From assembly GCF_025685395.1 (NCBI RefSeq), contig NZ_JAGSYA010000004.1, positions 2,852,001 through 2,916,000 on the forward strand: DNA of 64,000 bases. Reading direction: 5' to 3'. Numbering within the stretch: the stretch's first letter is position 1; each line of letters opens with the position of its first letter. The stretch is from Terriglobus tenax. GTDB lineage: Bacteria; Acidobacteriota; Terriglobia; Terriglobales; Acidobacteriaceae. Below are positions 19,928 to 51,679 of this stretch, one piece after another. The notes under the pieces were generated by a model that did no database searches, was not told the origin of the DNA, and saw nothing but the letters and a program-made list of their open reading frames with translations. Made by a program: the position numbers and the translations under genes.

Positions 19928-20036
19928 GAAAAGCAGATCCCTGCGGGATGAGAGACGGGAAAAGCATAAATGTGTCCGCAGACGCCTCCCCTTCTGGCTT
20001 TGTTATTTCGCAGGGAAGCGGAAGAATCTGCTTTTC
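19928..20036. repeat. Inverted pair of dispersed short repeats (MITE-like)
   Basis: GAAAAGCAGATCCCTGCG (19928-19945) is mirrored by CGCAGGG (20009-20015) and ATCTGCTTTTC (20026-20036). The unit AAGCAGATCC…GGATGA recurs, inverted, at 51618-51679 and, in altered form, inside lhr at 28531-28566. Transcribed, it can fold into a long stem upstream of queF. Confidence 0.65.
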
Positions 20037-27790: not shown

Positions 27791-30700
27791 ATGGCCCGCT
27801 CGAAGAAATCTGCCTCCGGCAACGCACCTGGAAAAGACGATGTGCTGTATCTGTTTCATCCGGTCACGGCGGCATGGTTCCGCGCTGTGTTCGACGGTCC
27901 TACGCCACCGCAGGTGGAGGGCTGGCCATCCATTGCACGTGGTGAGTCGACACTGATTCTTGCACCCACCGGCACTGGCAAAACGTTGACCGCCTTTCTG
28001 TGGTGCCTGGACAGGCTGATGCTGCGCACGCCGCCGGCAGAGCAGGGAACCGGTGTGAAGGTGCTGTACCTTTCTCCGCTCAAGGCGCTGGCCGTGGACG
28101 TGGAGCGCAATTTGAATTCTCCGCTCGCCGGCATCGCCAACCAGGCGCGGCAGATGGGCGTGGACTTCTACGAGCCCGTGATCAGCGTCCGCACGGGTGA
28201 CACCCCGCAGCAACAACGCGCCCGCTTTCGCCGCCATCCCGGCGACATCCTGATCACAACGCCGGAGTCGTTGTACCTGCTGCTGACGAGCGAGGCCGGC
28301 GAGGCCCTGCGTTCGGTGGAGACGGTCATCATCGATGAGATTCACGCGCTGGTGCCCACCAAGCGCGGGGCGCACATGGCGCTATCATTGGAGCGGCTGG
28401 AGGCTTTATGTGGACGCAGGTTGCAGCGCATCGGCCTGAGTGCAACGCAACGCCCGTTGGAAGAGGTGGCGCGGTTCCTGGGCGGGACCGAGGAGCCGTT
28501 GCGAGGTGGGAGTTCTGAGTTGCGAGTGGGAAAAGCAGGTCCTTCGGCTGCGCCTCAGGATGACAACGACGAATTCGATGGCGAACTAGACAACCAGCCA
28601 TCCAGCCAACCAGCCAACGCCTTCCGTCCCGTCACTATCGTCAACGCGGGGGCGCGCAAGCGGCTGGAGCTTCGCGTGGAAGTGCCGGTTGAGGATATGG
28701 CCCGGTTGGGAGAGATCGACGATCTGCCCAGTGGTCCGGCATCGCAGGGGCCGAAGCGGACGAGCATCTGGCAGTCGATTCATCCGCGCCTGCTGGAGAT
28801 CATCCGTCAGCATGAGTCGACGATTCTGTTTGTAAATGCGCGCCGCATTGCGGAGCGGCTCGCAGGCGCCATCAACGAGCTTGCGGGTGAATCCGTTGCA
28901 CGCGCGCACCATGGAAGCCTTGCGGCTTCGCAGCGCAGCGAGATTGAAGAGATGTTGAAGGCGGGCAAGCTGAAGGCGCTGGTTGCAACGTCTTCGCTGG
29001 AGCTTGGCATCGATATGGGCGCGGTCGATCTGGTGATCCAGATTGAAGCTCCTCCCTCGGTGGCCAGCGGGCTGCAACGCATTGGCCGCGCCGGGCACAC
29101 GGTGGGAGCTCCGTCGAAGGGTGTGATCTTTCCGAAGTATCGTGCTGATCTTGTCGCGTGTGCTGCTGTGACGCGTGCCATGCACGAGGGCCATGTGGAG
29201 TCGACGCGCTTTCTGCGCAATCCCCTGGACGTGCTGGCGCAGCAGATCGTCGCCATCGTTGCGCAGCCGCCAAGGGAGAGGGAATCGGGAGCAGGGAACA
29301 GGGAACAGAAGGACCCGCCAGCAATTCACTATGACGCGCTGTATGCGCTGATTCGCGGGTGTGCGAACTTTGCTTCGCTCTCGCGAGCCAGCTTTGATGG
29401 CGTGCTGGATATGCTCAGCGGGCGCTATCCCTCGGATGAGTTCGCCGAGCTACGCCCGCGCCTGACATGGGACCGTACCACCAACTGGCTTACACCGCGC
29501 GAAGGCGTGAAGCGCATTGCCATTCTGAATGCGGGGACGATTCCTGATCGTGGTCTATATGGTGTCTTCCTCTCGGGCGAACGCGCCAAGCCGATCCGCG
29601 TGGGCGAACTGGATGAGGAGATGGTCTTTGAGTCGCGAACCGGCGACACCTTTGTGCTGGGCGCTTCCACCTGGCGCATCGATGAGATCACGCATGACCG
29701 CGTGCTTGTCTCACCGGCACCGGGCGAGCCAGGCAAGATGCCTTTCTGGCACGGCGACCAGGCCGGCCGGCCGCTGGAGTTTGGCCGGCGCATCGGTCAG
29801 CTGATCCGCGAACTGCGCGATACGCCACGGCAGGTGGCCATCAACCGGCTTACGCGGGAGCATGATCTGGACCCCATGGCAGCGGAGAATGTGCTGCGCT
29901 ACCTGGCTGACCAGGAGATAGCCACGCGCGTTGTTCCGGATGACCGCAACGTGGTGATCGAACGTGTCCGCGATGAACTGGGCGACTGGCGAGTCTGTGT
30001 GCTCACGCCCTTTGGTTCGCGCATTCACGCTCCGTGGGCCATGGCGGCGACGGCGAAGATCAAGGCCGCAGGCGGGCCAGATGTGGAGACCATGTGGAGC
30101 GAGGACGGCTTCGTCCTGCGTTTTCCGGAGACGGACGAGCCGCCTGCCATTGAACAGCTTCTGCCGGAGCCGCAGGAGGCGGTCGATCTGGTGATGCGGC
30201 AGCTTGGCTCGACTGCGTTGTTCGCGGCAAAGTTTCGTGAAGCAGCGGCCCGTGCCTTGTTGTTGCCGCGACGGCGCGCCGATGGCCGTGCTCCGCTGTG
30301 GCAGCAGAGAAAGCGCGCGTATGACCTGCTGGCCGTGGCGTCGCGTTACAGCGAGTTCCCTATGCTGCTGGAGGCCTATCGCGAGTGCCTGCGCGATGTC
30401 TTTGACCTGCCTGCGCTGCGCGAGATTCTTACGCTGGTCAGCCGTCGCGATCTACGCGTGCATACTGTGGACTCGCGCACTCCTTCGCCCTTTGCCTCGG
30501 CGCTGTTGTTCAGCTACGTGGCCAACTATATCTACGACGGGGACGCTCCTCTGGCCGAGCGACGCGCGCAGGCGCTGAGCATTGACCAGGACCAGCTTCG
30601 CGAGCTGATGGGCGATGCCGACCTGAGGGAGCTTCTGGATGCGGCGGCTATCTCTGAAACAGAAGATCAGTTGCAGCTTCGTGCCGAAGGCTACCGCGCG

Positions 30701-32524
30701 CGCAATGCCGATGGAGTGCACGATCTTCTGTTGCGCCTGGGCGATCTTCGTCCGGCGGAGTTGCTGGAACGGGTTGTCTCGCCCGAGGTGGCGCTTGCCG
30801 TGGACCGTTTGAAGAAGTCGCGTCGCGTGCTGGAGATCGGCCTTGAAGGCGACAAGCGTTTGATTGCGGTGGAGGATGCCGGACGCTATCGCGATGCTCT
30901 TGGTATTCCACTGCCGCCGGGGTTGCCGTCGGCGTTTCTTGAGAAGACGCAGGATGCCTTGCTGGACCTTGTCCGCCGCTACGCGCGCACGCATGGGCCG
31001 TTCACTACGCCCGAAGCCGCAAAGCGTTTTGCCTTGCCGGAGCCGCTGGTGGAAGCGACATTGCAGCGGCTGGTGCAGGCGGGCCGCGTGGTCGAAGGCG
31101 GCTTCCGTCCGGAGGGATCGCACCGCGAGTGGTGCGATGTGGAGGTGCTGCGCACCATCCGTCGCAAATCGCTGGCGAAGCTGCGCCGCGAGGTGGAGCC
31201 GGTGGAGCAACGTACGCTCGCACGGTTCTTCACGCAGTGGCAGGGAGTGGTTACACCGAGGCGCGGGCTGGATGCCGTGCTGGACGCCGTGGAAAACCTG
31301 CAGGGCGCGCCGGTCCCTGCATCGCTGCTTGAGAGCGAGATCCTTCCCGCGCGCATCGGCACCTACAAGCCCGCCGACCTGGATACGCTCATCGCCGCAG
31401 GCGAGGTCATCTGGACCGGTCTGGAGCCGCTGGGCGAGCGCGATGGCCGCCTCGGACTTTTCCTTTCGGACAAGCTGCCGCTGCTGTGGATGCCGCGTCC
31501 GCTGCCGGAGCTGACGGAGAAGGAGAAGCTTGTCGTCGACCTCCTGCAACAGCGTGGCGCGACCTTCTTTGCGCAACTGCTCGAAGGCACGGGAGGCGGA
31601 TATCCCGGTGATCTGCTGGAGGCGCTGTGGTCGCTCGTCTGGAAGGGGCTGGTGACCAACGATTCGCTGCATGCCTTGCGGGCGTATATCGAGAGACCCA
31701 CGACCACGCGTCAGCCTGCGCGACGGGTGCATAACCAGCAGGCCGGCTTCCGATCGCGAAGGACGACTCCGCCGACAGGTCAGGGCCGGTGGGCGTTGAA
31801 TGCGATTGCCTTTGCGGACCAGGCGGCGCGCGCGACATCGTGGAGCCACGCCATCGCGCAGCAGTTGCTGGCGCGCTACGGCATCGTCTTCCGCGAGACG
31901 GCCCACGCGGAGAACCTGCCCGGTGGCTTCAGTGCGGTGTATGACGTGCTGAAGGCGATGGAGGAGTCTGGCAAGATTCGCCGCGGCTACTTTGCGGCCG
32001 ATCTCGGCGCTGTGCAGTTCGCTTTGCCCGCCGCGCTGGACCTGCTGCGGACGCTGCGCAACAAGGTGCAGCACGACGAGCCGGAGATGCTGCTTCTAGC
32101 GGCGACCGACCCGGCGAATCCTTATGGCACACTGCTGCGCTGGCCCGCCGCGCCCGATGCGTCGAGTACGCTGACACGCTCCGTCGGCGCGCGTGTGGTG
32201 CTGTGCGATGGCTCGCTGGCCGCGTACCTGCGCCGCGGCAACCCGAGCATCCAGGTCTTTTTGCCGGAAGAAGAACCGGCCCGCTCGCAGACCGCGCAAC
32301 AAATCGCGCAGTTCTTTGCGGAGGTCGTGGGCCGCAGGGAAGAGGGCGACGAGAACCGCTCGCGTGCCGGGATGTTGATCGCTATGGTCAACGGTGTTCC
32401 TGTTGCGGAAAGCGTAATGGCGAAGGTATTGCTGGAAGCGGGGTTTGTAGCTGCGCCGATGGGGTTCAATCTGCGGAGGCAGCTTTCGCAAGTGCAGCGG
32501 GCAATCAGCCAACCATCCACCTAG
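27791..32524 (+). CDS. lhr: Lhr-family ATP-dependent DNA helicase (long form)
   Basis: 1577 residues, comparable to the long E. coli/mycobacterial Lhr (about 1500). Helicase core: APTGTGKT (Walker A, about 57-64), TTPESLYLLL, DEIH box (about 182-185), LSATQRP, then second RecA domain with SSLELGIDMGAVDLVIQ and QRIGRAGH. Winged-helix and Lhr-core domains follow, then a long C-terminal extension that in relatives oligomerises the protein. Lhr tracks 3'-5' on single strands and unwinds RNA:DNA hybrids in repair. The next gene is a Nei-type glycosylase, as in mycobacteria. Two linkers hold non-family, repeat-derived text (residues about 240-275 and 494-513). Confidence 0.95.
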   Translation: MARSKKSASGNAPGKDDVLYLFHPVTAAWFRAVFDGPTPPQVEGWPSIARGESTLILAPTGTGKTLTAFLWCLDRLMLRTPPAEQGTGVKVLYLSPLKALAVDVERNLNSPLAGIANQARQMGVDFYEPVISVRTGDTPQQQRARFRRHPGDILITTPESLYLLLTSEAGEALRSVETVIIDEIHALVPTKRGAHMALSLERLEALCGRRLQRIGLSATQRPLEEVARFLGGTEEPLRGGSSELRVGKAGPSAAPQDDNDEFDGELDNQPSSQPANAFRPVTIVNAGARKRLELRVEVPVEDMARLGEIDDLPSGPASQGPKRTSIWQSIHPRLLEIIRQHESTILFVNARRIAERLAGAINELAGESVARAHHGSLAASQRSEIEEMLKAGKLKALVATSSLELGIDMGAVDLVIQIEAPPSVASGLQRIGRAGHTVGAPSKGVIFPKYRADLVACAAVTRAMHEGHVESTRFLRNPLDVLAQQIVAIVAQPPRERESGAGNREQKDPPAIHYDALYALIRGCANFASLSRASFDGVLDMLSGRYPSDEFAELRPRLTWDRTTNWLTPREGVKRIAILNAGTIPDRGLYGVFLSGERAKPIRVGELDEEMVFESRTGDTFVLGASTWRIDEITHDRVLVSPAPGEPGKMPFWHGDQAGRPLEFGRRIGQLIRELRDTPRQVAINRLTREHDLDPMAAENVLRYLADQEIATRVVPDDRNVVIERVRDELGDWRVCVLTPFGSRIHAPWAMAATAKIKAAGGPDVETMWSEDGFVLRFPETDEPPAIEQLLPEPQEAVDLVMRQLGSTALFAAKFREAAARALLLPRRRADGRAPLWQQRKRAYDLLAVASRYSEFPMLLEAYRECLRDVFDLPALREILTLVSRRDLRVHTVDSRTPSPFASALLFSYVANYIYDGDAPLAERRAQALSIDQDQLRELMGDADLRELLDAAAISETEDQLQLRAEGYRARNADGVHDLLLRLGDLRPAELLERVVSPEVALAVDRLKKSRRVLEIGLEGDKRLIAVEDAGRYRDALGIPLPPGLPSAFLEKTQDALLDLVRRYARTHGPFTTPEAAKRFALPEPLVEATLQRLVQAGRVVEGGFRPEGSHREWCDVEVLRTIRRKSLAKLRREVEPVEQRTLARFFTQWQGVVTPRRGLDAVLDAVENLQGAPVPASLLESEILPARIGTYKPADLDTLIAAGEVIWTGLEPLGERDGRLGLFLSDKLPLLWMPRPLPELTEKEKLVVDLLQQRGATFFAQLLEGTGGGYPGDLLEALWSLVWKGLVTNDSLHALRAYIERPTTTRQPARRVHNQQAGFRSRRTTPPTGQGRWALNAIAFADQAARATSWSHAIAQQLLARYGIVFRETAHAENLPGGFSAVYDVLKAMEESGKIRRGYFAADLGAVQFALPAALDLLRTLRNKVQHDEPEMLLLAATDPANPYGTLLRWPAAPDASSTLTRSVGARVVLCDGSLAAYLRRGNPSIQVFLPEEEPARSQTAQQIAQFFAEVVGRREEGDENRSRAGMLIAMVNGVPVAESVMAKVLLEAGFVAAPMGFNLRRQLSQVQRAISQPST
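28511..28620 (+). repeat. Intergenic-type repeats embedded in frame in lhr
   Basis: Within the coding region the DNA reads GTTCTGAGTTGCGAGT, then AAAAGCAGGTCC…CAGGATGACAA (28531-28566), then CCAGCCATCCAGCCAACCAG (28596-28615). The same word types occur between genes: GTTCTGAGTTGTGAGT at 51539-51554, AAAGCAGATCC…GGATGA near 19930, and AGCCAACCATCCAACCAG right after lhr (32522-32540). They encode a Ser/Pro/Gln/Asp-rich linker between the two helicase core domains. Confidence 0.6.
29272..29312 (+). repeat. Second low-complexity insert in lhr
   Basis: GGGAGCAGGGAACAGGGAACA is a short tandem of GGGAACA-like units giving the protein text RERESGAGNREQKDPPA, which interrupts otherwise family-like sequence between VAIVAQPP and IHYDALYALIRG. 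Confidence 0.5.
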
Positions 32525-32543
32525 CCAACCATCCAACCAGACA

Positions 32544-33449
32544 ATGCCTGAAGGCGACACAATCTTCCGCTCAGCCCGCGCTCTTGCAAAAGCCCTCACC
32601 GGGAAGGCGGTCATACGCTTTGAGACCGCACTTGCTCCGCTGCAGCGTGTGCAGGACGACACGCCAATCACCGGCCGCATGGTCGAAAAGGTGGAATCGC
32701 GTGGCAAGTGGTTGTTGATGTACCTCTCCGGTGACCTGATTCTTGTTACGCACATGATGATGTCCGGCTCCTGGCATATCTATCGCACCGGAGAGAAGTG
32801 GTGGCTTCCGCGCAAGGCGATGCGCGTGGTGATTGGTGTGGATGGCTTTGAGGCTGTCGCGTTCAACGTTCCGGTAGCGGAGTTCCATACCGCCCGCTCG
32901 CTGGCGCGGCACAGTGCGATTCCGCAACTTGGCCCCGATCTCCTTGACTCATCCTTTACACCGCAGACCGGGCAGCAACGTCTTGCCGAACGCGCTGTTT
33001 CCCACCCGGAAGACGAGGTCGCCGTTGTTCTGCTGAACCAGCGGGTGATGGCGGGGCTGGGGAATGTCTACAAGTCCGAGGTCTGCTTCACTGCGGGTGT
33101 CCATCCCTTCCGCCGCATGGACACGCTGACCGAAGGGGAGATGCTTGCCCTTGCCGACCATGCCCAGCGCTACATGCAGACCAACGTGCGGGATGGCTCC
33201 GGCGACGGAATCGTAACCTACACCGGCAGCCGCCGCACCACGCACCGCGCCGACCAGGAGGAGCGTCTGTGGGTCTACGGCAGGGCGGGAGAGGCCTGCC
33301 GCCGCTGCGGAACAACCATTCTGAGCCGCAAGCAGGGTGTGCAGGCACGCTCCACATATTGGTGCCCGAACTGCCAGCCCTGGAAGGGAAGCGAGGTGGA
33401 ACCGGAGGGCTGGGCGGTGAAGAAGCTCTCGCGCCGGACCAGTTGTTAA
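32544..33449 (+). CDS. Nei/Fpg-type DNA glycosylase (Nei2-like)
   Basis: 301 residues. The mature N-terminus P-E-G-D-T (catalytic Pro2 and Glu3) opens the protein; the H2TH region contains NQRVMAGLGNVYKSEVCF, and a zinc finger ends it (CRRCGT … YWCPNCQ). It removes oxidised bases and cuts the strand by beta/delta elimination. It lies 19 bases behind lhr in the same direction. The Lhr-Nei neighbourhood is known in actinobacteria, supporting cooperation in oxidative damage repair. MPEGDTI favours the Nei over the MutM group. A second member lies at 62966-63871. Confidence 0.93.
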   Translation: MPEGDTIFRSARALAKALTGKAVIRFETALAPLQRVQDDTPITGRMVEKVESRGKWLLMYLSGDLILVTHMMMSGSWHIYRTGEKWWLPRKAMRVVIGVDGFEAVAFNVPVAEFHTARSLARHSAIPQLGPDLLDSSFTPQTGQQRLAERAVSHPEDEVAVVLLNQRVMAGLGNVYKSEVCFTAGVHPFRRMDTLTEGEMLALADHAQRYMQTNVRDGSGDGIVTYTGSRRTTHRADQEERLWVYGRAGEACRRCGTTILSRKQGVQARSTYWCPNCQPWKGSEVEPEGWAVKKLSRRTSC

Positions 33450-33518: not shown

Positions 33519-33550
33519 ATTCAACTATTCAATTATTCAATCATTCATCT
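33519..33550. repeat. Four tandem 8-bp units (ATTCAANN)
   Basis: ATTCAACT, ATTCAATT, ATTCAATC, ATTCATCT follow without gaps, preceded by further CATTCAA words. The array lies 130 bases upstream of the amine oxidase start, in an A+T-rich intergenic stretch (33450-33681). It could vary by slippage and change promoter spacing. Confidence 0.7.
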
Positions 33551-51526: not shown

Positions 51527-51554
51527 TTTGCGTGGTGTGTTCTGAGTTGTGAGT

Positions 51555-51586: not shown

Positions 51587-51617
51587 ATTTGCCGTTCTTG
51601 CTGTTCCTTTTCTTGCC

Positions 51618-51679
51618 TTGTCATTCCGCAGGGATCTGCTTCCTGGTTTGAACAGCAGATTTCCTTCGCTGCGCTCCGG
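51618..51679. repeat. Second inverted pair of the dispersed repeat
   Basis: TTGTCATTCCGCAGGGATCT-GCTT (51618-51641) is the reverse complement of the AAGCAGATCC…GGAATGACAA unit, followed 12 bases later by a divergent copy AGCAGATTTCCTTCGCTGCG (from 51654). ATCTGCT and AGCAGAT form a short stem. Same family as 19928-20036. Confidence 0.6.

Follow-up and report, generated by a model that had tools for sequence, protein, structure and literature searches.

The stretch of DNA analysed here (the window; 64,000 nucleotides of a 4.36-Mb Terriglobus tenax genome) encompasses the gene lhr, which encodes a 1577-aa large helicase-related protein (Table 1). The protein yields Pfam matches to DEAD, Helicase_C, WH_Lhr, DEAD_assoc, WH2_Lhr, WH3_Lhr and WH4_Lhr, every match being above the curated cut-off and the first four following in the order DEAD, Helicase_C, WH_Lhr, DEAD_assoc that defines Lhr. 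Among the best 80 of 574 named loci, the nearest named relative is the Lhr of Terriglobus albidus (locus L153, 87% identity). A gene that looks Fpg/Nei-like by eye (32544-33449) begins 20 bases past lhr and is closely followed by an 8-nt array (ATTCAATT, 3.6 copies, 33519-33547); at locus L138, lhr is likewise followed by an Fpg/Nei-like gene. The mycobacterial lhr-nei2 pair is presented, in the available text of PMC11323726, as an operon for crosslink repair, and the domain order and the directly downstream Fpg/Nei-like gene are common to that system and the window. In two other genomes the gene has an unusual form: at L138 (G168), lhr lies in two frames with a break near aa 597 where there is no repeat (an error or decay), and at L147 (G035), the match spans only about aa 16-732, as though the core helicase alone were retained.

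Table 1 Repeat-related features of lhr and of the surrounding window
Feature	Positions	Strand	Basis or remark
lhr, large helicase-related protein, 1577 aa	27791..32524	+	ORF and Pfam
RecA1-RecA2 linker, aa 234-279, mostly repeat words	28490..28627	+	solved chains, pLDDT, relatives
GTTCTGAGTTGCGAGT word	28512..28527	+	copy at 51539 (1 mismatch); weak evidence on its own
HP1 hairpin unit, AAAAGCAGGTCC...GGATGACAA	28531..28566	+	middle 2 nt longer than in the commonest genomic form
C8 tandem array, 8-nt unit, 3.5 copies	28591..28618	+	Tandem Repeats Finder
Second insert, 7-nt GGGA(A/G)CA-type units, aa 495-506	29273..29308	+	inside WH_Lhr match
C8-type words running from the Lhr C-terminus (ISQPST-stop) into the spacer before the next gene	32509..32539	+	
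Degenerate intergenic HP1-like copy	19928..19955	+	direct reading
Degenerate intergenic HP1-like copy	51614..51642	-	direct reading

The linker between RecA1 (DEAD, aa 38-221) and RecA2 (Helicase_C, aa 334-435) contains one complete dispersed hairpin unit of ~34 bp, denoted HP1, and an array of CCAGCCAT/CCAACCAG 8-mers. The alignments with the best-matching Lhr chains of solved structure, the mycobacterial 7lhl and 5v9x, stop at residue 233 and resume at 280, and the second insert (near aa 497-513) has no counterpart in these chains either, such that both repeat-built inserts of the window Lhr are missing there. In an AlphaFold model of residues 1-470 built from 30 aligned sequences (mean pLDDT 79), pLDDT drops below 50 only at residues 1-15 and 238-273. 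Given its absence from the solved chains and the low pLDDT, the repeat-built stretch is predicted to be a disordered segment inserted where a domain ends.

An earlier note on this DNA had described three word types in the linker, together with GGGAACA units farther downstream, and had reported that the linker words recur between genes; all the words are located in lhr where it placed them, and their occurrence elsewhere differs from word to word. For GTTCTGAGTTGCGAGT, the single-mismatch intergenic copy does exist, but 5 of 100 shuffles equal the match count of this word in the window (at most 3 mismatches), so that, taken alone, it is weak evidence. The CCA array (28594) recurs at 32521, as the earlier note had it, and none of 100 shuffles equals these two window matches. 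Genome-wide, a related CCA 8-mer pattern has 55 matches, some of them overlapping, vs 8 for the reversed control; the 22 loci that were classified comprise 10 intergenic ones and 12 in called ORFs, the latter mostly at ORF ends or in doubtful ORFs, with 3 within long ORFs. The second insert does consist of GGGAACA-type units, but no intergenic copy of GGGAACA was found within the window: GGGAACAGGGAACAG has two overlapping window matches, both within lhr, and 8 genome-wide including these two (control, 0).

The hairpin was harder to trace. Even when 3 mismatches are allowed, the window contains it only once, and the intergenic copies reported at 19930 and 51618 proved to be degenerate relatives; an exact-word search with the lhr hairpin returned only itself, and gapped and consensus patterns were needed. 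A gapped HP1 pattern identifies five exact places in the genome, the lhr copy among them (control, 0), the 22-nt core TCATCCTGAGCGNAGCGAAGGA, with 2 mismatches or fewer, occurs at 17 places in the same genome (control, 0), and five places elsewhere in the genome align to query bases 20-56 (E-values from 3.8e-5 to 2.4e-4). The outer ends AAAAGCAGGTCC and GGATGACA are preserved in the lhr copy and in the six other aligned copies, except for one that ends with GGATGAAA instead; all seven start with AAAAGCAGG (one with ACAGCAGG) and end with GGATGACA or GGATGAAA. The six copies outside lhr are all intergenic according to the simple gene calls made here. The lhr hairpin is therefore a genuine dispersed unit. 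Its core TCATCCTGAGCGNAGCGAAGGA, presumably a common intergenic repeat in other phyla, is present in 162 of the 200 family genomes, with a maximum of 192 copies (G160). Rfam produced sub-threshold matches only, in 5 loci.

All 19 genomes of the genus contain an lhr match, and the 18 readable linkers vary in length and residues, several bearing other repeats: GTCAGCGA 8-mers in G007, G012, G013 and G014, a GGGAACA-type repeat with GGCTTTAGCC in G003, and a GGGAGCA-type repeat with HP1 in G016. In T. albidus, the closest named relative, and in species near it, the linker is short and free of these words; that of T. albidus consists of 28 unrelated amino acids. The outcome that the earlier note had named as refuting its proposal, conservation of the linker residues in distant Lhr proteins, was not obtained: the residues differ in kind and length among the genus genomes, in favor of the proposal.

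On the family scale, a query spanning the linker matched 176 of 200 genomes, many of these matches being to a paralogue. We read 77 linkers from fetched regions and 71 from named loci (best 80 of 574), which, after merging duplicates, amounted to 120 rows; 9 of the 80 named loci and 6 fetched loci in which the expression recognized no linker were dropped, as was the untrimmable G097, partial family matches (G026, G174 and others) fall outside the linker set, and L211 falls outside the tree. A word of a defined class is present in 29 of the 120 linkers, a biased rate given that the classes were defined after the linkers had been read, and 91 linkers have no recognized word. The classes are O8 (12 linkers), H7 (8), HP1 (4), HP2 (4, including G107 with a bare 10-mer that is possibly a chance match), CTC (2), HP3 (1) and C8 (1), some linkers carrying two of them. 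On a quick maximum-likelihood tree of the flanking protein, which came with long-branch warnings, the minimum number of state changes is 8 for O8, 5 for H7, 4 each for HP1 and HP2, 2 for CTC and 1 each for HP3 and C8, that is, 25 in total, with gains and losses not distinguishable. Linkers of the O8 class are found in Granulicella mallensis, Edaphobacter aggregans and E. lichenicola M8UP22, an HP1 linker in G. paludicola, and CTCTGTG words in Paracidobacterium acidisoli. The two E. lichenicola loci L225 and L165 differ, the 8-mer being present in the former and absent from the latter. Word-bearing linkers are slightly longer than the rest (median 46 vs 40 aa, p=0.014). One linker site in the Acidobacteriaceae thus bears several unrelated repeat classes, recurrently. 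The proposal of the earlier note that a dispersing repeat had entered lhr in frame is supported, the words being dispersed and, where classified, mostly intergenic; it has to be amended in that several unrelated classes rather than one repeat are involved, and that the phenomenon recurs throughout the family instead of being peculiar to one strain. The intact open frames bear out its suggestion that the repeats are tolerated, and the position and predicted disorder point to use as a flexible linker.

The tandem arrays can be detected with no word chosen beforehand, as 24-nt stretches in which no fewer than 19 positions match at lag 7 or 8. Such arrays are present in 18 of the 120 linkers, whereas 100 codon-order shuffles give a mean and a maximum of 0. 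In two sets that have some species in common, and with gene calls made here, there are 16 arrays per 14,052 nt of linker, 27 per 303,454 nt of intergenic DNA, 14 per 550,387 nt in the rest of Lhr and 7 per 1,429,977 nt of other coding DNA. When only the named loci are considered, the linker (9 per 9,303 nt) exceeds both intergenic DNA (13 per 87,072 nt, p=1.2e-4) and other coding DNA (5 per 313,388 nt, p=3e-11), with p-values that, here and in the next comparison, take 30-nt pieces as independent and ignore shared descent. The rest of Lhr, a class that contains a few linkers missed by the expression (L209), is enriched over other coding DNA when all loci are pooled (p=2.4e-4) but not among the named loci alone (12 per 374,403 vs 5 per 313,388 nt, p=0.23). 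Random 20-kb stretches from eight genomes (800 kb) contain 2 arrays per 664,394 coding bases. If the linker were a purely neutral sink, its array density would not be expected to exceed that of intergenic DNA; preferential capture, preferential retention or faster intergenic decay could each produce this excess.

The 8-mer and 7-mer words of a linker match the repeat stock of the genome it belongs to. A linker sequence and copy counts were both available for 69 genomes. Those with GTCAGCGA/GTCAGCRRGTCAGCRAG in the linker hold a median of 24.5 copies elsewhere, vs 1 in the others (8 vs 61 genomes, p=8.3e-6), and those with GGGARYA/GGGARYAGGGARYAGGG hold 222 vs 1 (3 vs 66, p=0.003); for HP1, the difference is not significant (56 vs 10 copies, 1 vs 68 genomes, p=0.08), all three p-values ignoring shared descent. 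Reversed-pattern controls are close to zero in most genomes, the exceptions being the 7-mer controls in G092, G171 and G184, and in some genomes the H7 counts are partly low complexity (G092, control 22 vs 33). The GGGAACA 7-mer and the CCA 8-mers contain no stop in any of the six frames, whereas GTCAGCGA is open on one strand only; in the eight de-duplicated Lhr ORFs with lag-8 arrays of GTCAGCGA, the stop-free orientation is read every time, and the genomes concerned hold GTCAGCGA on both strands. This orientation fits an open-frame filter.

Repeats are not confined to the RecA1-RecA2 linker. In a set of 117 distinct Lhr ORFs, there are 47 matches, either arrays or words, that map on the window protein, and 29 of them fall at aa 225-299. 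Three other sites recur, namely, 1233-1246, directly past WH3 (end 1228; 7 matches in six ORFs), 1336-1345, directly before WH4 (start 1346; 4 matches in three ORFs), and 499-502, the second insert of the window, which itself scores below the array threshold used and where 7-mers are also found in L146 and L194 (2 matches); the 5 single matches lie near aa 4, 8, 83, 1452 and 1571. The lhr of L209 has 7-nt arrays at three places, close to the N-terminus, within the linker and around aa 1452, and their unit does not resemble GGGAACA.

In the window genome, the three long ORFs with internal CCA words are DnaX (L048), RNase R (L029), where the word sits between the CSD2 and RNB matches, and a Pfam-less ORF (L004); in RecG (L037), the word is at the predicted start, and the true start is unsure. 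The tau/gamma linker of this DnaX carries in-frame HP1 as well as CCA words. DnaX also served to try the idea of a general sink, and the outcome speaks against a plain one: of the 30 loci fetched (from 60 matching ones), 29 were read, and by regular expression words occur in only 2 (G000, the window genome, and G076). The effect is thus weaker in DnaX, even though its linkers exceed those of lhr in length, which points to a feature peculiar to lhr or to the composition of its linker.

We consider it likely that dispersed repeats enter the disordered inter-domain loops of Lhr and that those with stop-free readings survive as linkers. The stock would be short repeats, chiefly intergenic in Acidobacteriaceae (7- and 8-nt tandem words, ~34-bp hairpins and others), that are occasionally copied into lhr at such loops, principally the RecA1-RecA2 linker. 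Frame-breaking or stop-bearing insertions would be lost, stop-free in-frame readings, mostly polar, would be kept as passive flexible linkers, and linker repeats would decay over time and be replaced by others. The identity of the words, their dispersal and lineage-specific presence at one site, the agreement of the 8-mer and 7-mer with the repeat stock of each genome, the open frames and the predicted disorder support this account directly; we infer the direction from intergenic stock to gene, the purifying filter and the role as a linker. More tentatively, the lhr linker may be a preferred site of capture or retention that is renewed by whatever repeat is active in the genome.

Several other explanations deserve consideration. 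That the arrays are selected as nucleic acid, for example, as mRNA or DNA pause or regulatory sites at domain borders with the peptide incidental, we regard as unlikely: the recurrent sites (aa 231-279, 1233-1246 and 1336-1345) lie at or beside Pfam edges (221/334, 1228 and 1346), the arrays are denser in the linker than in intergenic DNA, and G-rich heptamers elsewhere form quadruplexes in vitro, according to the available text of PMC4692102, but the 8-mers GTCAGCGA and CCAACCAG have no obvious structure in common with the hairpins, and the linker 7-mers are found in either orientation (L145, L146). Mobilization of the hairpin as a REP by a Y1 (RAYT-type) transposase is less probable still. 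A Y1 match is found in 181 of 200 family genomes, and tyrosine transposases of Acidobacteria are described in the accessible part of PMC3733652; however, PF01797 has no match in the window's own genome (G000), where this origin of HP1 is accordingly unsupported, nor was a Y1 transposase found in G003, G034 or G037, of which G034 and G037 hold 94 and 77 HP1 copies. The transposase may once have been present and since lost, but HP1 also lacks a GTAG or CGTC end tag, and the tandem 7- and 8-mers would be left unexplained.

Phase variation, in which slippage of the 7- or 8-nt units would toggle lhr, has in its favor unit lengths indivisible by three within an open frame; nevertheless, it seems very improbable, given that the units are few and degenerate, that the 19 listed genus orthologues contain no internal stop, and that the sole frameshifted lhr examined (G168) is broken away from the repeats. 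We give least credence to chance or convergent low-complexity sequence: linkers are generally loose in composition, but the codon shuffles yield no arrays, the words track the stock of each genome, and 7 and 8 are non-codon periods.

In-frame dispersed repeats in proteins are known, and the comparisons that follow are with the available portions of the respective papers. Rickettsia palindromic elements (RPEs) are inserted in frame in many unrelated coding genes (PMC10969869; PMC3733652), and the repeats described here are similarly of a dispersed, selfish type and lie in frame inside ordinary genes (lhr, dnaX and the RNase R gene). RPEs, however, are ~150 bp long and encode a conserved peptide, whereas lhr contains ~34-bp hairpins, whose reading varies among linkers, and 7-8-nt tandem words, such that several unrelated repeat classes occur at one linker. 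Many of the intragenic GTAG/CGTC REPs reported by Di Nocera et al. (2013) are in DNA replication and repair genes, including recB of two Xanthomonas species, where a REP is inserted at about the same site (PMC3733652). HP1 resembles these in being a short palindrome (within 20-40 bp) that is present in multiple copies and lies in frame; in contrast, none of the six genomic units or the lhr copy is tagged, and in the present case one gene is involved family-wide, with non-palindromic tandem words too. Finally, the G-rich heptamers of Xanthomonas (GGGAATC) and Nostoc (GGGGA(C/T)T) are mainly intergenic with an intragenic minority (PMC4692102). Our arrays likewise consist of 7-nt G-rich tandem units, and at lag 7 are mainly intergenic (23 per 303,454 nt vs 6 per 1,429,977 nt of other coding DNA), but the unit is GGGA(A/G)(C/T)A and the intragenic copies are concentrated at one linker. 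No report on repeats in lhr or in linkers of Acidobacteria was found in the literature searched, most subscription papers being out of scope. Given that in-frame insertion is already known, what is new here is the convergence of unrelated repeats on one linker.

The lhr linker provides a replicated natural experiment on linker origin, in which one homologous loop in many species has received unrelated donor repeats whose copies can be counted in each genome, and it indicates that short non-coding repeats enter coding DNA often enough for such study. The case also adds to what was remarked earlier, in the accessible part of PMC3733652, about such inserts in genes for DNA replication and repair. 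If the linker is indeed a preferred site, its rate of capture or retention would exceed that of intergenic DNA, and intergenic repeats would be a raw material for the evolution of linkers in DNA-transaction proteins.
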